A DNA stretch of 35,183 bases from the NCBI GenBank assembly GCA_024641925.1, contig JAHECB010000013.1, positions 1 through 35,183 on the forward strand. The letters are read 5' to 3'. Under the pieces are notes generated by a model that was not told the DNA's origin, made no database searches, and worked only from the letters and a program-made list of their open reading frames with translations. The stretch's first letter is position 1, and each line of letters opens with the position of its first letter. This DNA is from Betaproteobacteria bacterium (GTDB taxonomy: Bacteria; Pseudomonadota; Gammaproteobacteria; Burkholderiales; Burkholderiaceae_C). Made by a program: the position numbers and the translations under genes. Of this stretch, positions 2,035 to 15,308 are shown piece after piece.

Positions 2035-4056
2035 ATGCCTGATAACAGCGGCGGCGATCCTGCGCGCATCGACAGCGCGTCCCAGTCCACTCTCCAGCGG
2101 GGTGGCCCGCCGGATTCACATGCGCTGCCCAAGGGCATGCGCCTGTCCGAGTTCGAGATCGTCAGCCTGCTCGGCGAAGGCGGCTTCAGCGTCGTCTACC
2201 GTGCCTGGGACCATTCGCTCGACCGCGAAGTTGCGCTCAAGGAATACATGCCGGCGTCGCTGGCTGCGCGCGGCGAGCGCACCGCGGTGTACCCGCGCTC
2301 GGAGCGCCTACGCGAAACCTTCGAACTCGGCCTGAAGAGCTTCGTCAACGAGGCCAAGTTGCTGGCCCGGTTCGACCACCCTACTCTGGCCAAGGTGTTC
2401 CGGTTCTGGGAGGCCAACGGTACAGCCTACATGGTCATGCCCGTCTACGAGGGGGTCACGGTGAAGGACACCGTGCGCGCAATGGCGCAGCCGCCCGACG
2501 AAGCCTGGCTGCTCGGCTTGCTGGACCCCTTGACGCAGGCACTGTCCGTGATGCATGCCGAGCAGGTCTACCACCGCGACATCGCACCCGACAACGTGCT
2601 GTTGCTGGCGGGCACCGGCCAGCCCGTGTTGCTGGACTTCGGCGCAGCGCGGCGCGTCATCAGCGACCAGACACAGGCGCTGACTGTGATCCTCAAATCG
2701 GGCTACGCACCGCTGGAGCAGTACGCCGAGGTGCCCGGCATGCGCCAGGGGCCATGGACCGATGTCTATGCATTGGCGGCAGTCGTCTATTGGGCGGCGA
2801 TGGGGCGCACACCGCCGCCTTCGGTCGGGCGCCTGGTGAACGACAGCCACGTGGCGCTGGCCGCCTGTGCGGGCGACCGTTTCAGCGCGCGCTTCACAGC
2901 TGCGGTCGACCGCGCCCTGATCGTGCGGCCGGAATTGCGCACCCGCAGCGTCGAGGACTTCCGCGCCGAATTCGGGCTTGACGAGATGCGCCCCCCGGAC
3001 GCGCCGGCGGCACCGGCCACGCCGGTTGACAGCGATGCGACCGTCATCCGCCCGATGGGTGCCCGCACGCGGGCCGGCAGTGCCACGAGCCCTGCAGCGT
3101 CGCGCACCGGAGTGGAGCCGGCAGCCGCCGCCATGCCGATGCCAGCCGCGCCCGGCCGCAGCGTCTGGATGGCCGCCGCCGTCGCTGGCATTGCGCTGTT
3201 CGGGGGCGCGGCGTGGTGGTGGGCCGGTCGTGATGCGCCGCAACCCGGTCCGAAAGCCGTCGACAAGCCCGTGCTGGCGCAAGAAAGCGCCGTACCGAGC
3301 CCGCAGCAACCGACGGCAGAAAATGTGCGGGCTGCCACGGTGCCGCCCGAAGCCAACAAACCGCCGCTGCCCCCGCTGGCGTCAGCTGCTGAGGCCCTGG
3401 ACCGCCTGCTGTCGCAACAAGACCCACGCGTGGGGCTGAAGCTGCAGCCAACCCAGTTGAAGCTCTCTTTCGTGGCGGCCGCGCCCGGCAACTTCTACCT
3501 CGTCGCGCAACGCCAGGGAGAAAACCAGCTGCGGCTTCTTGCACGGCCCGCCGAGGTCACCGTGCCTGATCGCGCATTGAACGAGGGCACTCGCGGCGAG
3601 CTCGACCTGACCCGGCTCGACCTGGCGCCCGGACACTGGCGCGCCGCTGCGGTGCTCACAAGGCGGCCCCGCGAGCTGGCCGCCGCCGGCTGGCAGGCCG
3701 AGGGGGCGACTTGGCTGCGCCGCTTCGGCGCCGGGGCACCTGACGTAACGCAAGCACTCGGGCCACCGCAATGCGACGCGGGTGCGACCACCTGCGACAG
3801 CGCGTTCGGCGCCGCCGAATGGTCGTTCGACATCGCACCACCCGCCGAGCCGGCACCCGCCCGCCCGGTGCCGGCGCCCAAGCCCGTGCTGCCCAAGCCC
3901 GAGGCCAAGACGCCGGCAAACACAAAGCCCGATCACACGGCCGACGCACCCCGGGCAACGCCGGACCCTGAATGCGCCCGCATCATGAGCCGGCTTTCCC
4001 TGGGCGAAGCCTCGCCAGACCTGTTTGCGCGCATGAAGACGCTGAAGTGCAAGTAA
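2035..4056 (+). CDS. Transmembrane Ser/Thr protein kinase with periplasmic C-terminal domain
   Basis: A 673-residue Hanks-type kinase. Catalytic features are complete: glycine loop GEGGFSVV (about 47-54), VALK lysine (69), helix-C Glu in NEAKLL (106), HRDIAPDN catalytic loop (180-187), DFG (201-203) and a GYAPLEQY activation-segment end. After the kinase domain a DATVIRP sequence (about 334-340) looks like a phosphothreonine/FHA-docking motif. One membrane helix (about 376-397, VWMAAAVAGIALFGGAAWWW) is followed by a Pro/Ala-rich linker and a roughly 250-residue exported region that ends in a small Cys-containing tail (CARIMS...LKCK). The exported part has a beta-rich segment (FVAAAPGNFYLVAQ) like DUF4384-type domains seen behind similar kinases. 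No strong ribosome-binding site precedes the ATG at 2035; a downstream ATG near 2137 (MRLSEFEIV) is an alternative. It is first in the + strand envelope cluster and probably its signalling component. Confidence 0.92.
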   Translation: MPDNSGGDPARIDSASQSTLQRGGPPDSHALPKGMRLSEFEIVSLLGEGGFSVVYRAWDHSLDREVALKEYMPASLAARGERTAVYPRSERLRETFELGLKSFVNEAKLLARFDHPTLAKVFRFWEANGTAYMVMPVYEGVTVKDTVRAMAQPPDEAWLLGLLDPLTQALSVMHAEQVYHRDIAPDNVLLLAGTGQPVLLDFGAARRVISDQTQALTVILKSGYAPLEQYAEVPGMRQGPWTDVYALAAVVYWAAMGRTPPPSVGRLVNDSHVALAACAGDRFSARFTAAVDRALIVRPELRTRSVEDFRAEFGLDEMRPPDAPAAPATPVDSDATVIRPMGARTRAGSATSPAASRTGVEPAAAAMPMPAAPGRSVWMAAAVAGIALFGGAAWWWAGRDAPQPGPKAVDKPVLAQESAVPSPQQPTAENVRAATVPPEANKPPLPPLASAAEALDRLLSQQDPRVGLKLQPTQLKLSFVAAAPGNFYLVAQRQGENQLRLLARPAEVTVPDRALNEGTRGELDLTRLDLAPGHWRAAAVLTRRPRELAAAGWQAEGATWLRRFGAGAPDVTQALGPPQCDAGATTCDSAFGAAEWSFDIAPPAEPAPARPVPAPKPVLPKPEAKTPANTKPDHTADAPRATPDPECARIMSRLSLGEASPDLFARMKTLKCK

Positions 4057-4158: not shown

Positions 4159-4174
4159 TGCGGTGGCCACCGCA
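4159..4174. promoter_or_regulatory. Perfect 16-bp palindrome upstream of the heme-motif lipoprotein
   Basis: TGCGGTGGCCACCGCA is a perfect palindrome with no spacer, lying 42 nt before the preferred ATG at 4217. Its position between the kinase gene and the next gene fits a dimeric-regulator operator. No cognate regulator is encoded in the cluster. Confidence 0.35.
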
Positions 4175-4216
4175 ACCGGGTCGACAGGGTTGAACACTGA
4201 GATGAGGGGATTTCGG

Positions 4217-6478
4217 ATGCGGACGCAATCGAGAGAACGCCGGATCGGCATTTTCAGCGCGCTGGCGGCGGCCTTGTTGCTCGGCTCCTGCGGTGGCGGC
4301 ACTGGCACCAAGGCCGGCAGCGGGACCGAGAAGACCACGCTCACCGTCGAGGCCACCGATCCCGACGGCGACACGCTGCACTACAACTGGCGCGTCACCG
4401 CCGGCGCCATCGACAACCGCGACGCCCGGTCCACCGTGTGGACACTGCCCGCCGGCCCGGGCCTGCATTTCGCCTATGTCACGGTGACCGACGGCAAGGG
4501 CGGCGTTGCTGAACAGCAGTACGCGGTGTCGTCCGACACGCTCGACATCGCGGCCCCGGTGCGCGCGCCAGTGAACCGCACCGCCTTGGCCTTCACCGGG
4601 TCGGAGGGCGGCACCGGACGGCTCAGCTTCGTTCGCACGGGGTACTTTTTTGCCAACCCCAACGGCGGCAACGATGTTGAGCGCTACATCTACATGCCGT
4701 CGGTACGGGTCGAACTGCGCAACGCGGCGAACGAGGTGGTGTTTGCCGGCGAGTCCGACGCCACCGGGCGCCTGGACCTGCCCCAGCTGGCGAACGACGC
4801 TGCGCTGAAGGTCTACTGTGCAGCCGGCCGCGGCATTGCGCTGGCGCCCTGCAATGCGAGCAGGCCGCTGGACGCGCCCGTCGTCACCCCCACGGCGATC
4901 AGCGCCATCTCGAGCACGCTGCAGCCCCCCACGGACCCGGCCCATAACCTGCGGCTGTACGGCCACCTCGGCTTCGCCGACGGCGGCGTGTGCCACCACC
5001 GCAACGAGTTCACCGGCCGGAGCTTGCGCGCCACGGCGCAGCTTCAGCTGATCGACGGCAGCGCCCTCGCGCCGGCGGTCGAGGTCAACCAGTTTGGCGA
5101 CTACGCCATCGACGCCGCGGTGCCGGTGCAGGCCCAGCTGAATTTGCGCGTGCGCTGCGAGGGCATCGACATCCTGCTGCCCGTGCGCGCTGCCACGGGC
5201 GCGGGCTACGATGCCGACACGAAGGTCGAACTGTCAGGGGTGCTGCCGAACAAGCACCCGCGCATCGTCAAGATGGTGGCCAACGGCCCCGAAGGCAGCG
5301 TGCGTGGCGCGGTGGTGGAACTGGCGCTTGCGGGCGCGCCTTCCAACAGCCTGCCAGGCACCAACCGGTTCCTCGCTTTCCGGGGCCTGGACACACGCGC
5401 CGGCGCCTGCCTCTACTACAAATCGTTCGGCGCCGTCCAGGACTGCGACGCCCAGGGCAACATGCTGAACCCGATTTCGCTGGCGGACTGGCGGCGCCAG
5501 CACAAGTTCGGCGCCCATGCCACGGGCAATGTCGAAGTGGCTGCCACCTACGTCAACAAGATGGACCTGAACCTGGTGCGCCGCATGGTGGCCACCCAGT
5601 CGGCGCCCGACAACATCGCCTTTGTCGTCTGCAACCACCCGGGACCAGAGGGCCGCAGCCAGCGAGAGGTGGATCAGGTGATCGACACGGCGCTGGCCGA
5701 CGAGAAGCTGGTCGCCTGCGTGGCCATGGAATGGTCGGTGACGCCGGGCGTCAACGGCAGCAAGCCCTTCACCAAGTTCCTGACCTTCGGGCCGGACGGC
5801 GGGCTGCTGCTGTCGGTGAACCTGGACGGGCGAGGCGAGAAGTACATGCCGGGCACCTGTGTCGCCTGCCATGGCGGCAATCAGTACCGCGGACGCTTCC
5901 CGCAGGCCGGCAACCCGTCGCCCAACCTGGGCTCCGGTTTCCTGCCCTTCGACAACGGCAACTACCTGTTTTCATCGTCCGGCGCGCTGCGCAAGGACAC
6001 GCAGCAGATGTCGATCCACGGCCTGAACAAACTCGTGCGCGAAACCTGGCGCGACAGCGCCAGCAACGCGGTGCGCAACCTGGTCAACGGCTGGTATGCC
6101 AACGACACCCGCAGCGAACTCCAGGAGTCCTACGTGCCGCCGGCGTGGCAGGCGCTGGATGTGACGCGCCCGGGTGCCGCGACCGTGTACCGCGAGATCG
6201 TCGGTGCCTCCTGCCGCACCTGCCATGTCGCCTTCCAGGGTTTCGACTGGGACGCCGAGCCGCAGCGCATCGTCGTGCCCGCAGGCTCGACACAGAAGAA
6301 CGTGCATGTGTGCGGCGGCTCGCCCGATCTGGCGGTCAACGCCAGCATGCCGAACGCCCTGATCTCACGCGATCGCGCCTTCGAGCGCGTGGCCGAAGAA
6401 CCCGCTCTGGCAGCGCTGATGCAGCAGTTTTTCGGCTGCACCAAGGCGCTGCCCGACCCCGCGTACACGCGCCAATGA
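4217..6478 (+). CDS. PKD-domain lipoprotein with two c-type heme-binding motifs
   Basis: The preferred start is the ATG at 4217 (753 residues), because it gives a proper lipoprotein signal: basic MRTQSRERR, a hydrophobic run, and a lipobox LGSC with Cys25. The 4163 start of the ORF track is a GTG that gives no signal. After the lipid anchor comes a PKD/Ig-like beta-domain (about 40-105, with ATDPDGD and VTVTDGKGG), then a long region of beta-rich sequence. Two CxxCH motifs follow: CVACHGG at 548-554 and CRTCH at 666-670, which should bind covalent heme c once exported. The spacing and lack of other cytochrome landmarks mean it is not a classical small cytochrome c. The following OmpA lipoprotein starts 32 nt downstream. 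Likely a membrane-anchored periplasmic or outer-membrane electron carrier or sensor; partner and substrate are unknown. Confidence 0.8.
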   Translation: MRTQSRERRIGIFSALAAALLLGSCGGGTGTKAGSGTEKTTLTVEATDPDGDTLHYNWRVTAGAIDNRDARSTVWTLPAGPGLHFAYVTVTDGKGGVAEQQYAVSSDTLDIAAPVRAPVNRTALAFTGSEGGTGRLSFVRTGYFFANPNGGNDVERYIYMPSVRVELRNAANEVVFAGESDATGRLDLPQLANDAALKVYCAAGRGIALAPCNASRPLDAPVVTPTAISAISSTLQPPTDPAHNLRLYGHLGFADGGVCHHRNEFTGRSLRATAQLQLIDGSALAPAVEVNQFGDYAIDAAVPVQAQLNLRVRCEGIDILLPVRAATGAGYDADTKVELSGVLPNKHPRIVKMVANGPEGSVRGAVVELALAGAPSNSLPGTNRFLAFRGLDTRAGACLYYKSFGAVQDCDAQGNMLNPISLADWRRQHKFGAHATGNVEVAATYVNKMDLNLVRRMVATQSAPDNIAFVVCNHPGPEGRSQREVDQVIDTALADEKLVACVAMEWSVTPGVNGSKPFTKFLTFGPDGGLLLSVNLDGRGEKYMPGTCVACHGGNQYRGRFPQAGNPSPNLGSGFLPFDNGNYLFSSSGALRKDTQQMSIHGLNKLVRETWRDSASNAVRNLVNGWYANDTRSELQESYVPPAWQALDVTRPGAATVYREIVGASCRTCHVAFQGFDWDAEPQRIVVPAGSTQKNVHVCGGSPDLAVNASMPNALISRDRAFERVAEEPALAALMQQFFGCTKALPDPAYTRQ

Positions 6479-6510
6479 GCGGCCAAGCCAACCGCGCCGA
6501 GGAAACCTCC

Positions 6511-7929
6511 ATGATCAATCCGCGCCATCGCCAACGCCATCGCACCGGCGCCTGGCTGCTCTGCCTGGGCCTGCTCGGCGCCTGCGCCGGTGTCGAGCGG
6601 CCAATGCAGGCACCGACCGCCCCGGCGGCTGCAGCGGCCACGCCCAAAGCGGCGCCCGTGCCCGCCGCAGCACCCCAGGCCGCACCCATGTCGCCACAAC
6701 CGGCCGCAGTCCGGGCCGCAGCACCCACCGCCGCCCCGGTCGCGCGGCCTGTGGCCCAGGCGCCTGTCGCCACCACGCCCAGGACGCAGACCCCGGCGCC
6801 GCCCGCGCCGGAGCGCGAATTTGTCGCCCCGCCGCCGATCGAGTTCAAGGCCGCGGTCAGGCGTGCCGGCGCCCAGTTGCTGGCCGACGCCGGCGGCGTG
6901 CTCGGCGCCGAGGCGCGCGTGCTGGTGATCGACCCGCTGATCGACGCCAACACCGGCGGCCAGACCGTCAGCACCGTCAGCATGGGCGACCAGCTCGAGG
7001 GCCTGGTGAAAGCGCGCGCCGACGGCTGGAAGGTGCAGCCGCTGACACGCGAGGCCCTGGCGGGCCGACCCCTGCTGCTGATCGGCACGCTGACACCGGT
7101 GACGGTGGAACGTTCCATCGACACCGTACCCGACGCCTTTCGGGTCTGGCTGACGCTGATCGACCTGCGCACCGGCACCGTGGTGGCCAAGAGCCTGGAC
7201 CGCGCCACCACGGCATCGGTCGACCCGACGCCGCTCAAGTACTACAGCGACAGCCCGACCTGGCACAAGGACAAGACGGTTGCCGGCTACATCAACTCCT
7301 GCCAGGTCAAGACCCGCATCGGCGACCCGGCGGACCCGGACTATCTGGCGCGCCTGCCCGCAGCGGCGGTCGTCAACGAGGCTGCCATCGCCTATGACGA
7401 CGGCAAACTCGCGCAGGCCAATCAGCTTTACAAGGAAGCCAGCAAGCTGGCCGACGCGGGCGACCTGCGTGTGCTCAACGGCTTGTACCTGACGAACTGG
7501 CAGCTCGGCCAGCGCGACGCCGCGCGCGACGCCTTCGACCGCCTCGTCGCTTCCGGCCTGCACGAAGAGAAGCTGCCGCTGAAGTTGCTGTTCAAACCCG
7601 GCGGCACCAACTTCAACAGCATCGGCGACCTGGCCCAGCAGTACGACATGTGGATCAAGTCGCTGGCCCAGGTGACCGGCCGGGTGGCGGTTTGTGTGCG
7701 TGTCGTCGGGCACACCAGCCGCACCGGCAGTGCGCGGCTGAACGAGACCCTGTCACGCAAGCGCGCCGAAGCCGTGGCCGACATGCTGGTGCGCCAGAAC
7801 CGTGCCCTGTCCGCCCGCCTCAGCATGGCCGGCGTCGGCTCGCGCGAGGCCCTGGTCGGCCTGGGCACCGACGACCTGCGCGATGCGCTGGACCGGCGGG
7901 TGGAGTTTCGGGTCGTGGATTGCGTTTGA
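6511..7929 (+). CDS. OmpA-domain lipoprotein
   Basis: The true gene is 472 residues from the ATG at 6511, preceded by GAGGAAA. The much longer 979-residue ORF of the track is an out-of-frame extension through the previous gene. The N-terminus is a lipoprotein signal (hydrophobic run, lipobox LGAC with Cys25), then a Pro/Ala-rich linker (about 30-105). The middle carries a segment that fits assembly of a small domain with short TPR-like helices (AIAYDDGKLAQANQLYKEA). The C-terminal 80 residues are an OmpA/Pal peptidoglycan-binding domain (VVGHTSRTGSARLNETLSRK; DALDRRVEFRVVDC). It should tie the outer membrane or a bound complex to the cell wall. The next gene starts 44 nt downstream, so the two are probably cotranscribed. 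Confidence 0.88.
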   Translation: MINPRHRQRHRTGAWLLCLGLLGACAGVERPMQAPTAPAAAAATPKAAPVPAAAPQAAPMSPQPAAVRAAAPTAAPVARPVAQAPVATTPRTQTPAPPAPEREFVAPPPIEFKAAVRRAGAQLLADAGGVLGAEARVLVIDPLIDANTGGQTVSTVSMGDQLEGLVKARADGWKVQPLTREALAGRPLLLIGTLTPVTVERSIDTVPDAFRVWLTLIDLRTGTVVAKSLDRATTASVDPTPLKYYSDSPTWHKDKTVAGYINSCQVKTRIGDPADPDYLARLPAAAVVNEAAIAYDDGKLAQANQLYKEASKLADAGDLRVLNGLYLTNWQLGQRDAARDAFDRLVASGLHEEKLPLKLLFKPGGTNFNSIGDLAQQYDMWIKSLAQVTGRVAVCVRVVGHTSRTGSARLNETLSRKRAEAVADMLVRQNRALSARLSMAGVGSREALVGLGTDDLRDALDRRVEFRVVDCV

Positions 7930-7973: not shown

Positions 7974-10900
7974 ATGTCGAATCACTTGACGCCAAATGGC
8001 GGCCGGTCGCTGCGCAGGGCTGGGCTGACCCTGGCGCTAGCGGTGGGCGCTGTCAGTGCGGTGCAGGCCCAGACTGAACCACCCTCTGGCGCTTGCGTGG
8101 CACCGGTGCAATGGACCACCACCAACTACGGCGTGGGCACCTGCGCAGCTTGTCACGGCGGCACGGGCAACCCGCCCGCCATCGCCGCCAGTACCGGTGC
8201 CGGTTCAACGACGCTCGGGCTGTTCGAATCGTGGCTGGGCACATCGCCCCCGGACAACGATGCCACGCGGCTCTCTCGCCTGAGAACACGCATCACCGGC
8301 GTCAACGCGTCGATGACCGGCCTGGCTGGCGCTGCCGACGCAGACGCACAGGCGGTGGTGAACTACCTGACGTGCGTGCGCGACCTGCGGGTCGACACGG
8401 GGAGCCTGACCCTCACGCCGGCCGCCGCCATCAACCAGGCGCGCACCGCCACTTTCGTGATTGAAAATCCGCGCAGCGAGTCGGTGGCGTTCACCACCAC
8501 CGTGGCCGCCAACACGCAAGACTTTCCACAATCCGGTCTTTCCAGCACCTGCGGCGGCACCGTCCCGGCCGGCACGCCGGGCACGCCGGGCTCGTGCACC
8601 GTAACCGTCACGTTCAAGCCCCAGCCGGGCACCCCGACGACCCGGACGGGCACGCTCGCTGTTGCCTTCCTGACGCCGGTGTCCGCCGTGTTGCCCCATT
8701 CGCGGTCGATCACCCTGACCGGAACGGTCCTGCCGCCGGTCTACCAGTTCACTGCCGCCGCCGGACCGTTTTCGGCGCGACTGAACCGGTCCGCCGACCT
8801 GTTGGTAGGCACGCTGAAAAACACGGGCAATGCCAGCTTGGCCGTTTCCAGCATCACACGCGCCAGCGGATCGACGGCCTTCACGCAGTCCCCGGCGGAC
8901 ACGGCGCGCCCCTTGGCCTGCAGCAGCACGCCGCTGCTGGACGGCAACGCCAGCTGTGAGGTCTGGCTGCGATTCACACCCACCGCGGCAAACTTGACCA
9001 CAGCGCCCGACACCTACGCCGCCACCTTCACTGTGGCGCACAACGCGGCCGGCAGCCCCGGCAGCGTCAGCGTCACGGCCACAGGCCCGCAGCCGCTGAT
9101 CAGCCCGACCACGTTGTCGCTGCTGTTCGGTGACGTGCAGTCGGGCGTGGCCACGCCGAAAACCGCGCAGTTCAGCGGCGTAGGCACCATGCCCCTGACT
9201 TTCACCGCTGACCCGAAACTGCCCGGCGCGCTCAGCGGCACCAATCCGGCTGACTTCAGCGTCGGCACCAGCTGCAACAGCGGCGTCAACGCCACCTTGG
9301 CATCGGGGTCACCGTGCACGGTCACGGTCACTTTCACGCCACCGTTGAACGCACCGGTGAACGTAGAGCGCAGCGCGACACTCACCATCAACACCGACGC
9401 CGACAACAACGCCGGCGCGCTGGCCATCACCTTGCGCGGCACCCCGGTTGCGCTGCCCTCGCCGACGGTCACTTTCCCGACCAGTGCGTTTGCCAGCACA
9501 GCCATCGGTTTTGCCACGACAACCACAGCCACGGTGACCCTCAACAACCCGCGCACACGGGCGGTCAACTACGCCGTCACGTCTACCCGTGCGGCGGACT
9601 TTGCCGTCGTCGGCGGCACCTGCCCCGGCACCGCGGGGCAGGTGGCGGGCGGCGGTGGATCCTGCACCCTGCTGTACCGGTTCCAACCCGCAGCACCTTC
9701 GCCGGGCGATACCGACGACCGCAGCACGACCTTGACCGTGTCGTTCACCGGCACGGGCGGCGACGCCAACCCGGCCGCGCAGTCAGGCACGCTAAGCGGT
9801 CGTGCAGTGCTGCCGCTGACGCTGTCGACCGCCGTCCTGAGCCCGTCGTCGATCGTCAACACCGCCACCACGGCCACGCTGCTGCTGACCAACAACACAC
9901 CGTCGCCATTGACACCCACCGGGCTGCCCGTCACCGGTGCGGCGCTGGCCGACTACAGCGTCGACGCGGCCAGCGCCTGCCGTGCCGGCCTGGCCATCAA
10001 CGCCAGTCAGAGCTGCGCGCTGACGCTGCGCTTCCTGCCCACGCTGGAAGGCCTGCGCGCGGCAAGCCTGGGTATCGAGCACGCCGCCTACGGCAGCCCG
10101 CAAGCGGTTGCACTGCAGGGCACTGGGCAGCCGGTGCCCCAGGGCGAGGCCGCGTTCTCGGCACAAGCGCTGAACTTCGGTGACCAGCAACGGGGCAGCA
10201 CCAGCAGTGCCTTGACGGTGTCGCTGACCAACACCGGCACGGCGCCCTTGACCGTGAGCGCCCTGACGCTGGGCGGCGCCCATTTCGCCGACTTCAGCCG
10301 CAGCGGCAGCTGCGTCATCGGCTCGCCGCTGGCCATCGGCGCGCGCTGCGAAATGCTGTTGCAGTTCACCCCTGCGCAGCTGGGTGCACGCAACGCCACG
10401 CTGCGGGTGCAGTCCAACGCCCGGGTCAACGCGGACGTCACGATCGCGCTGTCGGGCAACGGCATCCCGGTGCCGGTGCCAGTGGTAGGGCTGTCGCCGC
10501 TGCCGCTGAACTTCGGCGACCAGGCGGTCGGAGGCCTTTACCCGACACGCAACCTGCAGCTCAAGAACACCGGCACGGCCGACCTGCTGTTGGCCAGCGT
10601 GACGGTGCAGGGTGCAGGCTTCAGCCTGGTACCGGGTTCGTCGTGCGGCACGACGCTGGCGGCGGGCGCGACCTGCGACATCCCGGTGGCTTTCGGTGCC
10701 TCGTCGGCGGGCGCTGATTACAGCGGTACGGTGACGCTGGCCAGCAATGCGGCCGACTCGCCGCACAGTGCGCAACTGGTGGGCAAAGGCGCCCTCGCTG
10801 CAGCGCCGGTGCTGGCCTGGGAGCCGGCATCGGCAACGCTGAACTTTGGCGAAGTGGCCGTGGGCACCGCCTCGGCGCCCCAGCCGTTGACGCTGGCCAA

Positions 10901-11597
10901 CCGCGGCCCGGGCGGCGTGAAACTGACCTTGCTGAACGCGGTCGGCCTGGACCGTGCGAACTTTGGCCATGTCGACGGGGCTGACGCCTGCCAGATCGGG
11001 GTCGTGCTGTTCGAAGGCACAACCTGCCGCGTCTACGTGGTGTTTGCGCCGGTACAGTCCGGCGTCAAGCAGGTGGCGCTGCAACTGGCTGCCGGCAACA
11101 GCCTGCCACCGGCCTTGACGCTGCAGGGCACCGGCATCGGCGGGCCCACCGCCGCGATGTCCACCTCGGTCGACGCGCTGTCGTTCGGCACGCTGGCGGC
11201 CGGTTCGCGCTCGGCACCGCAGTCCATCACGATCACCAGCAGCGGGGCCGCGTTGCGCATGACGGCGCTGCGGGTCACGGGCCCGTTTGCGCTCAGCGGC
11301 GGCAGCTGCCCCGCCCTGCCGTTCGATCTGCCCGCCGACAGCGCCTGCAGCGTCGACATCACGTACCAGCCGCAGGCTGAAGGCGCATCAACAGGCTTGC
11401 TGCTGATCGGTGAAGACAGTGATCCGGCGCAGCGCAAGTTGCAGCTGAGCGGCACGGCGAGAAAGGTCGATGCGCTCAGCGGTGGGGGCTGCACGATCGT
11501 GAACCGGCCAACGCTGACCGACCCCACGCTGTGGCTGCTGGCGTTGGGGGCCGCGCTGGCGCTGTGGCGGCGCGAGTCGGCGCGCCGGCGCCGCTGA
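7974..11597 (+). CDS. Large exported cytochrome-like protein with choice-of-anchor-D repeats and a JDVT-CTERM-type sorting tail
   Basis: The start is the ATG at 7974, with AGGAG about 8 nt upstream; the longer 1315-residue ORF start is rejected because it lies inside the previous gene. The product is 1207 residues. It has a Sec signal peptide ending near VQA-Q (about residue 32) and one heme c motif, CAACHGG (57-63), in a short cytochrome-like domain. About ten hundred residues of repeated beta-sandwich domains follow, many opening with L.FG....G and closing in TV.F.P (for example LNFGDQQRGS, LNFGDQAVGG, LNFGEVAVGT, LSFGTLAAGS), typical of the choice-of-anchor-D/ASH-Hydin-like fold. The last 38 residues are tripartite: GGGC, a hydrophobic helix (DPTLWLLALGAALALW) and a basic end (RRESARRRR). 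That is the architecture of C-terminal sorting tails, closest by memory to JDVT-CTERM. The next gene is a candidate processing protease 2 nt away. Confidence 0.85.
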   Translation: MSNHLTPNGGRSLRRAGLTLALAVGAVSAVQAQTEPPSGACVAPVQWTTTNYGVGTCAACHGGTGNPPAIAASTGAGSTTLGLFESWLGTSPPDNDATRLSRLRTRITGVNASMTGLAGAADADAQAVVNYLTCVRDLRVDTGSLTLTPAAAINQARTATFVIENPRSESVAFTTTVAANTQDFPQSGLSSTCGGTVPAGTPGTPGSCTVTVTFKPQPGTPTTRTGTLAVAFLTPVSAVLPHSRSITLTGTVLPPVYQFTAAAGPFSARLNRSADLLVGTLKNTGNASLAVSSITRASGSTAFTQSPADTARPLACSSTPLLDGNASCEVWLRFTPTAANLTTAPDTYAATFTVAHNAAGSPGSVSVTATGPQPLISPTTLSLLFGDVQSGVATPKTAQFSGVGTMPLTFTADPKLPGALSGTNPADFSVGTSCNSGVNATLASGSPCTVTVTFTPPLNAPVNVERSATLTINTDADNNAGALAITLRGTPVALPSPTVTFPTSAFASTAIGFATTTTATVTLNNPRTRAVNYAVTSTRAADFAVVGGTCPGTAGQVAGGGGSCTLLYRFQPAAPSPGDTDDRSTTLTVSFTGTGGDANPAAQSGTLSGRAVLPLTLSTAVLSPSSIVNTATTATLLLTNNTPSPLTPTGLPVTGAALADYSVDAASACRAGLAINASQSCALTLRFLPTLEGLRAASLGIEHAAYGSPQAVALQGTGQPVPQGEAAFSAQALNFGDQQRGSTSSALTVSLTNTGTAPLTVSALTLGGAHFADFSRSGSCVIGSPLAIGARCEMLLQFTPAQLGARNATLRVQSNARVNADVTIALSGNGIPVPVPVVGLSPLPLNFGDQAVGGLYPTRNLQLKNTGTADLLLASVTVQGAGFSLVPGSSCGTTLAAGATCDIPVAFGASSAGADYSGTVTLASNAADSPHSAQLVGKGALAAAPVLAWEPASATLNFGEVAVGTASAPQPLTLANRGPGGVKLTLLNAVGLDRANFGHVDGADACQIGVVLFEGTTCRVYVVFAPVQSGVKQVALQLAAGNSLPPALTLQGTGIGGPTAAMSTSVDALSFGTLAAGSRSAPQSITITSSGAALRMTALRVTGPFALSGGSCPALPFDLPADSACSVDITYQPQAEGASTGLLLIGEDSDPAQRKLQLSGTARKVDALSGGGCTIVNRPTLTDPTLWLLALGAALALWRRESARRRR

Positions 11598-11599
11598 TC

Positions 11600-12007
11600 A
11601 TGCGCACCGAACCGCACACGGTCGTGCCGGTGGCTGCCACCGTACTGCTGGCAGCGGCGGCGCTGTCCAGCGCCAGCGCTGCTTCGGCCGCGCCCAGCCT
11701 GGTCGTCATGCTGTTGCTGGTCGCTCCGCTGCTGGAAGAAACCGTGTTCCGCGTCGGCCTGCAAGACGCCCTGATGCGGTCGCGCCACGCGCTGTCGCCG
11801 ACGGCAGCAGCGCTGGCGCTGGCGCTGGTGGTCGCGCTGGTGCATGTCTGGGCACGGCAGGACCTGCTGGCACTGGGCGTGGTGGTGCCAGCAGCGGCCA
11901 TCGGCCTGCTCTACAACCGCTGGCGCCGGCTGCGCTGGTGCGTGCTGGCGCACGCCGCCATGAACGCGCTGTGGATCCTGTTCACCACGTCGACGACGGT
12001 CAGCTGA
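11600..12007 (+). CDS. mrtJ: CPBP-family glutamic intramembrane protease, MrtJ-like (JDVT-CTERM sorting)
   Basis: A 135-residue integral membrane protein starting at the ATG at 11600, two bases after the stop of the sorting-tail protein; the 11531 ORF start lies inside that gene. The CPBP (Abi/CAAX-like) catalytic motifs are complete: EETVFR (E46, E47, R51), a His on a later helix (VHVWARQD, H82) and HAAMN (H118, N122). It is far shorter than typical CPBP proteases, which is a feature of dedicated sorting enzymes such as MrtJ. Immediate linkage to a protein with a GGGC/helix/Arg tail strongly suggests that it cleaves that tail in the inner membrane. The gene name rests on motif and context, not on an HMM search. 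Confidence 0.8.
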   Translation: MRTEPHTVVPVAATVLLAAAALSSASAASAAPSLVVMLLLVAPLLEETVFRVGLQDALMRSRHALSPTAAALALALVVALVHVWARQDLLALGVVVPAAAIGLLYNRWRRLRWCVLAHAAMNALWILFTTSTTVS

Positions 12008-12043
12008 GCCATGACCCATTCAAAAAACAACCCGGGGGAACAC

Positions 12044-13060
12044 ATGGTCACCGCGATGCAAAGGGCACGCCACGCGTGCGTAGCGGTCGGTCTGGGTCTG
12101 ACAGCGCTGGGCGCACAGGCCCAGGCCGACTACGGCTACTACGGCGTGCTGGACCTGTCTTACGGCCGCTTTGAGCCCAGCGGCCTCTACCGCGAGCACC
12201 GATTCAACAGCAACTCGATGACCGCCACCTTTGGCGGCGTCAACTTCAGCTATGGGCTGGAAAACGGCTGGACGCCCGGCGTCACGCTGGAAGCCTTCTA
12301 CCGGCTGCAGGACGCGCAGGGCGGCCGCAGCAACCGGGACCCGCTGCTGTCGCGCAATGCCTTCGTGTCGCTGGCGCATCGCGAGTACGGCACCTTGCGT
12401 GCCGGCCGCCTGCAGACCACGATGTTCAACCTGACGACGCGTTTCAATGCGCTGGGCAACTCGGTGGCCTTCTCGCCGGCGGTGCGCCATGTCTTCACCG
12501 CCGGCAACCTGATCGGGGTGCAGGGCGACTTCTACTGGAACCAGGCGCTCAGCTACACCAGCCCCAACCTGGAAGGTGTGACGACGACGCTGATGCTCGC
12601 GCGCGGTGAGCAGCAGGACCCGGGCGATCTGGCGGGGCTGAGCGTGCTGTTCTCGCGCGGCCTGCTGGCGCTGTCGGGGTCGGTGCAGCGTGTCCATGTG
12701 GACGACGGCATCAAGGACCCGACGAAAGAAACGGCCTGGCAGCTCAGCGGGTCCTACAACGTCGGACTGGTGCAGGTCTTTGCCATGGCTTTCGGCACCC
12801 ATGACAGAGGCTTGGACGTACGCAGCCACACCCTCTCGGCCGGCGCCAGCGCGCCGCTCGGGCCCGGAACCTTGTCGCTGCAGATGGCGTACTCGCAGGC
12901 CGACGGCCCGGCGGTGGACCGCCGCCAGACCACCACCAGCGCGGCCTACGTGTATGCCTGGGACAGTCTGACCGATCTCTACGTGGTCATGATGGACGAC
13001 CGCGCCAGCGGTCAGACACGCGGTGTCTCGATGGCCAGCGGGGTGCGTTGGCGCTTCTAG
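12044..13060 (+). CDS. Gram-negative porin
   Basis: An outer-membrane beta-barrel protein of 338 residues if started at the ATG at 12044, just after GGGGGAA; the track start at 12011 lacks a ribosome-binding site and gives a poorer signal. A signal peptide ends at AQA-QADYGYYG. The mature part has the alternating aromatic strands, turn glycines and internal loop segment (REYGTLRAGRLQTTMFNLTT) of beta-proteobacterial general porins (Porin_4/OmpC-like), and it ends in Trp-Arg-Phe, the C-terminal aromatic recognised by the BAM machinery. At 338 residues it is close to the usual size. It lies 36 nt after the protease gene, so it may belong to the same transcript and offer a route across the outer membrane for whatever the cluster handles. 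Confidence 0.85.
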   Translation: MVTAMQRARHACVAVGLGLTALGAQAQADYGYYGVLDLSYGRFEPSGLYREHRFNSNSMTATFGGVNFSYGLENGWTPGVTLEAFYRLQDAQGGRSNRDPLLSRNAFVSLAHREYGTLRAGRLQTTMFNLTTRFNALGNSVAFSPAVRHVFTAGNLIGVQGDFYWNQALSYTSPNLEGVTTTLMLARGEQQDPGDLAGLSVLFSRGLLALSGSVQRVHVDDGIKDPTKETAWQLSGSYNVGLVQVFAMAFGTHDRGLDVRSHTLSAGASAPLGPGTLSLQMAYSQADGPAVDRRQTTTSAAYVYAWDSLTDLYVVMMDDRASGQTRGVSMASGVRWRF

Positions 13061-13126: not shown

Positions 13127-13816
13127 ATGATTGAAACCAGTGCCGCCGACTTTGCCGCCCTCACCCGCGACGTGTACCGCAGCAGCCCCAAGGGGTCGAA
13201 GGTCTACGCCTGGTCGCGGCAGAACTTTCTGGGCGACCCGACCAACGGGTTCTTCGCCGCCGCGTACCAGACGCCCCGCACCGGAAAACTGGTGGTGGCG
13301 TTCCGAGGCACGCAGCCAACCAGCGCAGTCGACTGGGCGAACAACCTGGCCAACACGACCGGTTGGTCCAGCGGCCAGTGGGACAGCCAGCTCAATACGG
13401 CGCTGGCCTACTTTCGTGCCGTCCGCAGCATCTACGCCGCAACCGACGTCGCCGTCTGCGGCCACTCCCTCGGCGGGTTTCTGGCCTCCATGGTCGCCAT
13501 CAAGGAGCGCGTACTCGGCGTCACCTTCAATCCGGCGCCGCTGGGCCTGTCCGGGCTGGGCACCCGGCTGCAAAGCGGGGCGCGCGACGCACCTCGCATC
13601 GTCAACTTCCGCCTGAAGGGCGACCTGGTCTCCGGGCTACGTCGGTACAACATCGGTCCGGTCATCGAACTCTCGCACTCGCGCGCCGAGCTGTGGGCCC
13701 GCGCGCCCGGGATCATGGGCGACCTGGACCCGATCATGCACGACATGGGGCTGATGGAAGAGGCCGTGCTGCTTCACCGGCATTCGGGCCTTGCACCAGA
13801 ACGCTGGGCACGTTGA
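13127..13816 (+). CDS. Lipase-fold (class 3-like) alpha/beta hydrolase
   Basis: A 229-residue protein with the lipase class 3 pattern: VVAFRGTQ oxyanion-side strand (about 56-63), nucleophile elbow CGHSLGG (Ser114), catalytic Asp candidate in LKGDLVSG (Asp166) and a late His (DPIMHDMG, His205; His184 is an alternative). No signal peptide or membrane helix is visible, so it is either cytoplasmic or exported by an unusual route. GGGG lies about 6 nt before the ATG. It is 66 nt after the porin on the same strand and is the last gene of the envelope cluster. Substrate unknown; esterase or phospholipase A1-like action is the family expectation. Confidence 0.8.
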   Translation: MIETSAADFAALTRDVYRSSPKGSKVYAWSRQNFLGDPTNGFFAAAYQTPRTGKLVVAFRGTQPTSAVDWANNLANTTGWSSGQWDSQLNTALAYFRAVRSIYAATDVAVCGHSLGGFLASMVAIKERVLGVTFNPAPLGLSGLGTRLQSGARDAPRIVNFRLKGDLVSGLRRYNIGPVIELSHSRAELWARAPGIMGDLDPIMHDMGLMEEAVLLHRHSGLAPERWAR

Positions 13817-14270: not shown

Positions 14271-15308
14271 ATGGAAAAAGACGATGCCAGAAGACTGAGC
14301 CCGAGTGAGCAACACGAGCGACGCAGACAAGTCATTCGAGCGCACAAGCGGGGGCGAACCCGCACGCAGATTGCCCAAGAAGTCGGCCTGAGCTACACAT
14401 CTGTGAGCAAGACCATTGCGCGCTACGAGGAAGAAGGTCTTGCTGCATTGGCGCCGCGCACACGCGGTCGTCGAAGCGGAGAAGATCGCGCGCTGACCGA
14501 GCTGCAAGAGCAGACCATCCAGCGCACCATCTGCGACAAGCGACCTGAACAATTGAAGATGGAGTTTGCGCTGTGGAGCCGCGCCGCCGTGATGCAACTC
14601 ATTGAGCGCGAATTCGGTGTTGTGCTTCATGTGCGCTCGGTGGGCAAGTACCTCGCACGCTGGGGCTTCACGCCGCAAAAGCCGATCAAGCGCGCGTACG
14701 AGCAATCCCCTGCAGCAGTCAAAGATTGGCTCGACAACCAGTACCCGCAGATCGCCAAGCGCGCAAAGGCCGAGGGCGGCGAGGTTCACTGGGGCGACGA
14801 GACTGCGCTGGTGAACACCGATGTTCGGGACCGTAGCTTCGCGCCCAAAGGCAAGACGCCCGTGACGATGGCCATCGGTGGGACACGCCAGAAGCGATCG
14901 ATGATTGCCACGGTCACCAACCAGGGAAAGGCGCGCTGGATGATCATCGACGGCGCCTTCAATCACGAACGGCTGATCGAATTTTTCGAGTCGTTGGTCA
15001 AAGACACGGGCAAGAAGATCTTCTTGGTCCTGGACAACCTGGGCGTTCATCACTGCAAGCCAGTGAAGGCCTGGTTGCTAGAAAACGCCACCAAGATGGA
15101 GGTGTTCTACCTGCCCAGTTACAGCCCTGAGTTGAACCCCGAAGAACGACTGAACGCAGACCTCAAGCACGTCATCAGAAGCAAAGTTCCGGTGCGCACG
15201 AAAGCCAAACTACAGGCTGCCGCTGATGATCACAGGACGGCGCTGCAGGCCAAACCTGAACGCGTTAAGACCTTCTTCCAAGAGCCGTTTGTGAAGTATG
15301 CGGCCTGA
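14271..15308 (+). CDS. IS630-family transposase
   Basis: A 345-residue DDE transposase. The N-terminal helix-turn-helix (RTQIAQEVGLSYTSVSKTIA, about 31-50) and a second winged-helix region precede the catalytic core. The triad is visible: HWGDE (Asp176), LVLDNLGVHH (Asp255) and PELNPEERLNADLKH (Glu291). The length is normal for the family and the frame is uninterrupted. The ATG at 14271 has only a weak ribosome-binding site. A nearly identical 3' part of the same gene is at 34435-34957. Confidence 0.93.
   Translation: MEKDDARRLSPSEQHERRRQVIRAHKRGRTRTQIAQEVGLSYTSVSKTIARYEEEGLAALAPRTRGRRSGEDRALTELQEQTIQRTICDKRPEQLKMEFALWSRAAVMQLIEREFGVVLHVRSVGKYLARWGFTPQKPIKRAYEQSPAAVKDWLDNQYPQIAKRAKAEGGEVHWGDETALVNTDVRDRSFAPKGKTPVTMAIGGTRQKRSMIATVTNQGKARWMIIDGAFNHERLIEFFESLVKDTGKKIFLVLDNLGVHHCKPVKAWLLENATKMEVFYLPSYSPELNPEERLNADLKHVIRSKVPVRTKAKLQAAADDHRTALQAKPERVKTFFQEPFVKYAA

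Follow-up and report, generated by a model that had tools for sequence, protein, structure and literature searches.

A JDVT-CTERM/MrtJ sorting pair with a heme-motif substrate in a conserved six-gene locus of a betaproteobacterium

Two adjacent genes at positions 7974–12007 of a 35,183-nucleotide stretch of betaproteobacterial DNA (GenBank assembly GCA_024641925.1, contig JAHECB010000013.1, positions 1 to 35,183; the whole stretch is referred to here as the window) encode an exported protein with a heme c motif and a small membrane protease, raising the question of whether they form a dedicated sorting system and, if so, where such a system would take a cytochrome-like protein. A preliminary description, made from the letters of the DNA without database searches, assigned the pair to the JDVT-CTERM/MrtJ class and named the two family models as the check to run; both proteins score above the curated cut-offs, and both genes lie exactly where they had been placed. 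The description missed the conserved six-gene locus that surrounds them.

The first gene (7974–11597, + strand) encodes the substrate, a protein of 1207 residues with a signal peptide-like N-terminus (recognized by eye only: RRAGLTLALAVGAVSAVQAQ), a cytochrome c-like head, about nine choice-of-anchor D domains and a C-terminal sorting tail, GGGCTIVNRPTLTDPTLWLLALGAALALWRRESARRRR, in which GGGC is followed by a hydrophobic helix and the Arg-rich end RRESARRRR. The tail (11478–11573, +) matches the NCBIfam JDVT-CTERM model NF033191 with 34.9 bits (cut-off 27) over residues 1169–1200 of 1207; GGGC occupies residues 1170–1173, and the codon for Cys1173 lies at 11490–11492. The exported protein with this type of ending was thus present as first described, as were the heme c motif near its N-terminus (CAACH, residues 57–61) and the long beta-domain array, which matches the NCBIfam choice_anch_D model NF012200 in nine stretches (308 bits, cut-off 45). 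At E values up to 10, the MYXO-CTERM model TIGR03901 did not match the substrate, and the GlyGly-CTERM model gave no match.

The second gene (11600–12007, +), whose start codon follows the substrate stop by 2 nt, encodes MrtJ, a CPBP glutamic-type intramembrane protease of 135 residues, and the catalytic motifs reported earlier were all found in it: EETVFR at residues 46–51 (EExxxR), H82, and H118-x3-N122 (HxxxN). It passes the NCBIfam MrtJ model NF033192 narrowly (79.6 bits, cut-off 75) and matches the Pfam Rce1-like family with 53 bits, while its Mrt_core score of 26.8 bits is below the cut-off of 100. The expectation of one protease with very few substrates also held, since a search of the window's own draft genome (4.94 Mb, 93% complete) returned exactly one JDVT-CTERM protein and one MrtJ above cut-off. 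Judged by both family models, the pair is a genuine JDVT-CTERM/MrtJ sorting system, composed of an exported protein with a tag at its C-terminus and a membrane protease whose predicted task is to remove that tag. JDVT-CTERM/MrtJ is already published as a two-gene neighborhood of beta- and gammaproteobacteria (cited in PMC11980579), so that the core interpretation was right and is known in kind.

To place the pair among its relatives, 80 genomes were scanned, and eight with sub-threshold MrtJ matches were left out of the co-occurrence count. JDVT-CTERM proteins above cut-off were present in 44 of 45 genomes with MrtJ above cut-off, compared with 4 of 27 without MrtJ (Fisher p ∼1e-13, not corrected for phylogeny), and in one of those four, the tail protein has a weak relative of MrtJ (55.7 bits) next to it. 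The pairing is therefore not a matter of chance. A survey of the window and 60 further MrtJ-like loci, with a tail model built from their own substrates, found a JDVT-type protein adjoining MrtJ, upstream or downstream, in 38 of the 61; several of the remaining loci end at contig ends or sit within type II secretion system (T2SS) operons. Among 43 substrates, matches to JDVT-CTERM were found in 41 and to choice-of-anchor D in 21, and the aligned tails share six invariant residues, G1171, G1172, C1173, D1183, L1186 and R1200 in window numbering. Subtilase-type proteases and esterase-like proteins are also found among the substrates of the wider set.

Departures from the simple pair were seen as well. 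In four loci (L096, L115, L088, L091), a single MrtJ is accompanied by two JDVT-CTERM substrates. In three species of the same genus as the window, a JDVT-like tail occurs with no recognizable MrtJ (L158:7858-9207, +; L159:9074-10294, −; and the end of L161), and in two of them the tail ends a different protein, which has a heme motif, choice-of-anchor-like domains and a proline-rich linker. A motif search beside the JDVT-like proteins of the same-genus genomes G584, G779 and G657 gave no adjacent protease, and just distant CPBP matches (≤44 bits) were found there, away from the JDVT-like genes.

The preliminary description regarded the substrate as unusual, and here the survey went against it. 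The same heads and choice-of-anchor D domains recur among relatives, and the idea of a one-off architecture was rejected. The heme motif was largely specific to one clade of the protease. A tree of 73 MrtJ domains, built from few columns, resolves two clades of 35 and 38 rows with support 99/81. An N-terminal CX2-4CH motif is present in 31 of 33 substrates in the clade that contains the window (clade A) and in 1 of 22 in the other; by chance, it would be expected in ∼0.2% of shuffled N-termini. The lone motif-bearing substrate of the other clade, from the Rhizobacter locus L139, is itself encoded in a six-gene locus, but with the order changed to substrate, porin, mrtJ and with an MrtJ from the other main branch. 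This combination leads us to read L139 as a case in which the usual MrtJ was apparently replaced by a protease of the other branch.

In the window, the heme motif is part of an N-terminal monoheme cytochrome c-like domain (8139–8369, +; sub-threshold in Pfam), with a candidate axial Met before its C-terminal helix. In many members, the heme motif is likewise followed by a Met-containing stretch and a YL..VRD-type helix, and cytochrome c models were the commonest Pfam match among 17 aligned heads (10/17).

The genes around the pair were then compared with those of other MrtJ loci, and the same set recurred in the same arrangement: kinase, diheme lipoprotein, OmpA-type protein, JDVT cytochrome, MrtJ and porin. 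In the window, all are on the + strand. A Ser/Thr protein kinase gene (2035–4056; Pkinase, 81.5 bits) precedes a gene for a diheme lipoprotein-like protein (4163–6478) with a lipobox-like LLGSC, a PKD-like N-terminus and two CxxCH motifs, which matches no Pfam family above cut-off. An OmpA-domain protein with a peptidoglycan-binding type C-terminus follows (6490–7929, start approximate; 36.4 bits), and after the sorting pair comes a Gram-negative porin (12011–13060; Porin_4, 91.7 bits). The CVACHGG region and CRTCH of the diheme lipoprotein are invariant among 18 aligned homologues (51–57% identity); a PDB sequence search with it found no relative, and Foldseek, given its AlphaFold model (pLDDT 71), found only generic matches to multi-domain beta-sandwich structures, at poor TM-scores.

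A scan with the diheme lipoprotein recovered 17 named loci in Piscinibacter, Rhizobacter, Massilia, Zoogloea, Caldimonas, Variovorax, Roseateles, Polaromonas, Ramlibacter and metagenome-assembled genomes. With the window and five more genomes added, 22 distinct loci were long enough to judge. Every one encodes both a porin and a heme-motif protein with a JDVT tail (22/22 each), and 20 of the 22 include MrtJ; in the two without a local copy (G718, G581), an MrtJ-like gene that scores under the curated cut-off is located elsewhere, and in G581 this gene lies beside a second JDVT protein. All 10 genomes of the family sample with a full-length diheme lipoprotein also have an MrtJ match. OmpA-type homologues are 59–75% identical and porin homologues 51–65%, the latter coming after MrtJ or after the substrate in all informative loci. 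The substrate itself shows 29–41% identity and ranges from ∼726 to 1534 residues while keeping head and tail, as expected of a stalked surface protein. Downstream of the porin in the window are a lipase-like alpha/beta hydrolase gene (13127–13816, +), absent from the other MrtJ loci that were examined, and, just beyond the cluster, a DDE_3 transposase of the IS630-like type (14271–15308, +).

Evidence for the export route came from other loci of the survey. In L067, L068, L069 and L073, mrtJ sits between gspF and gspG of a gsp operon, near locus position 9500 in all but L069, where it is on the reverse strand near 9700–9950; for L073, family models back the order GspD, GspE, GspF, MrtJ, GspG, GspK. 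A related arrangement is present in L071: downstream of gspF come, in order, the gene for a subtilase-type JDVT protein, mrtJ and genes for pseudopilins. This location of mrtJ points to export of JDVT-CTERM proteins by the T2SS. The window's own genome encodes GspD (569 bits) and GspN (82 bits), and GspN is required in Acinetobacter for surface delivery of T2SS lipoproteins (PMC12802150). Co-occurrence with T2SS or GspN was rejected as a discriminating test, since both are near-universal in the family, and operon position is for that reason the stronger evidence.

Taken together, we lean toward the view that this branch is devoted to a surface cytochrome c. On the sequence side, the proposal draws on family membership, co-occurrence, the clade-specific heme head, the conserved locus and the linkage of mrtJ to T2SS genes elsewhere. 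The substrate would be exported by Sec, receive its heme in the periplasm and stay tethered to the inner membrane through the C-terminal helix. The next step would be modification of Cys1173 of the GGGC motif, most likely the attachment of lipid by a general enzyme, after which MrtJ would cut on the C-terminal side of this residue and thereby remove the helix and the Arg-rich end. Folded and anchored by its lipid, the protein would then be taken to the outer surface by the T2SS, where the length-variable choice-of-anchor D stalk would keep the monoheme cytochrome c off the membrane. At the outer membrane, its partners would probably be the diheme lipoprotein, the OmpA-type protein and the porin; their joint task would be redox sensing or electron transfer, and the kinase may control it. 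Because the locus combines a porin and an OmpA-type protein with three heme motifs, a surface or outer-membrane redox module appears to be its most economical reading.

The order of these steps is modeled on the sister system MYXO-CTERM/myxosortase. In that system, TraA depends on MrtX both for its cleavage and for its anchoring at the surface, cleavage requires the tail cysteines, and the proposed sequence of events is lipidation, then cleavage, then T2SS export (PMC11980579). By homology to MrtX, the same order is the best reading for MrtJ, and the predicted tail cleavage by MrtJ is well supported on the same grounds; we infer lipidation, the cut site, the surface location and the redox or electron-transfer role. 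The two systems share an invariant Cys, a helix, an Arg-rich end, a CPBP protease and likely T2SS export, but they have different tail models, the window MrtJ is minimal at 135 residues, and dozens of substrates are present per Myxococcota genome compared with one in the window genome. GlyGly-CTERM/rhombosortase is also comparable, in that a tripartite C-terminal tag is cut off by an intramembrane protease and export is by the T2SS, although its protease is a serine rhomboid and its tag lacks an invariant Cys.

Several observations weigh against a stalked surface cytochrome operating in a redox module. The isolated head scores E = 0.004 with Pfam Cytochrome_CBB3 and E = 0.005 with Cytochrom_C, both under cut-off, and its AlphaFold model has low confidence (pLDDT 61.9) and no structural match in the PDB, so that the cytochrome fold is not confirmed; given these scores and this model, a monoheme cytochrome c domain is likely but unproven. 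Lipidation is unproven even for MYXO-CTERM proteins, no experiment on MrtJ was found in the literature, and the presence of T2SS and GspN in the genome is non-discriminating (family-only p = 0.33). As an electron conduit, one heme per surface protein is weak. The porin, to judge from its family match, is an ordinary Porin_4 and not an MtrB-type conduit. The locus resembles the Mtr/Mto porin-cytochrome conduits in that cytochromes, a lipoprotein and a porin are encoded together, but it has three heme motifs in all, and family scans of the window proteins detected no homology to Mtr/Mto parts.

Three other explanations were weighed, and we consider each of them unlikely. The heme domain might be a redox or gas sensor head that feeds the kinase, rather than an electron-transfer station, and a Ser/Thr kinase gene does accompany nearly all copies of the cluster. 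The position and strand of this gene vary, however, with the homologue in some relatives lying downstream or on the opposite strand, and the heme head is also present in clade-A loci that lack the cluster, which makes this role for the head improbable. Alternatively, cleavage by MrtJ might simply free the substrate as a soluble secreted or periplasmic cytochrome. Intramembrane proteases can free their substrates, and some of the TraA of Myxococcus xanthus is extracellular (PMC11980579), but a plain shedding tag would need no invariant GGC, and a stalk of varying length between head and tail fits an anchored protein. Cys-dependent cleavage and anchoring in the MrtX system likewise favor anchoring, and we give release little weight. 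Finally, MrtJ could be a sortase-like one-step transpeptidase that joins the new C-terminus to lipid or another acceptor, as rhombosortase is thought to act in Vibrio (discussed in PMC11980579) and as the placement of GGGC just outside the helix would allow, but this is doubtful because the invariant Cys suits side-chain modification, the CPBP relatives Rce1 and MmRce1 are endopeptidases acting at prenylated Cys, and the authors of the MrtX study argue against one-step transpeptidation (PMC11980579).

The preferred reading, a surface cytochrome c sorted by its own protease, leaves the window pair as a variant of a known system. Like other JDVT-CTERM/MrtJ pairs, it consists of adjacent genes with one substrate per protease; unlike them, it is embedded in a six-gene locus that encodes heme proteins and a porin, and its MrtJ belongs to a clade nearly confined to substrates with a heme-motif head. 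This heme-specific branch and the six-gene locus are the new part, and they may already be mentioned in the primary MrtJ literature. We suggest, tentatively, that one of the two main branches of MrtJ serves specifically to display cytochromes, and that its six-gene form is an undescribed outer-surface redox module of Burkholderiales and relatives, with a heme head on a stalk of variable length. MrtJ systems with one enzyme and one target are good test cases for the processing of Cys-containing C-terminal tags, and the presence of mrtJ within gsp operons supports, on genetic grounds, the export of JDVT-CTERM proteins by the T2SS. Strains of Massilia, Roseateles, Caldimonas and Variovorax carry the heme-rich locus, which makes the proposal that a cytochrome is sorted to the surface by a protease of its own directly testable.

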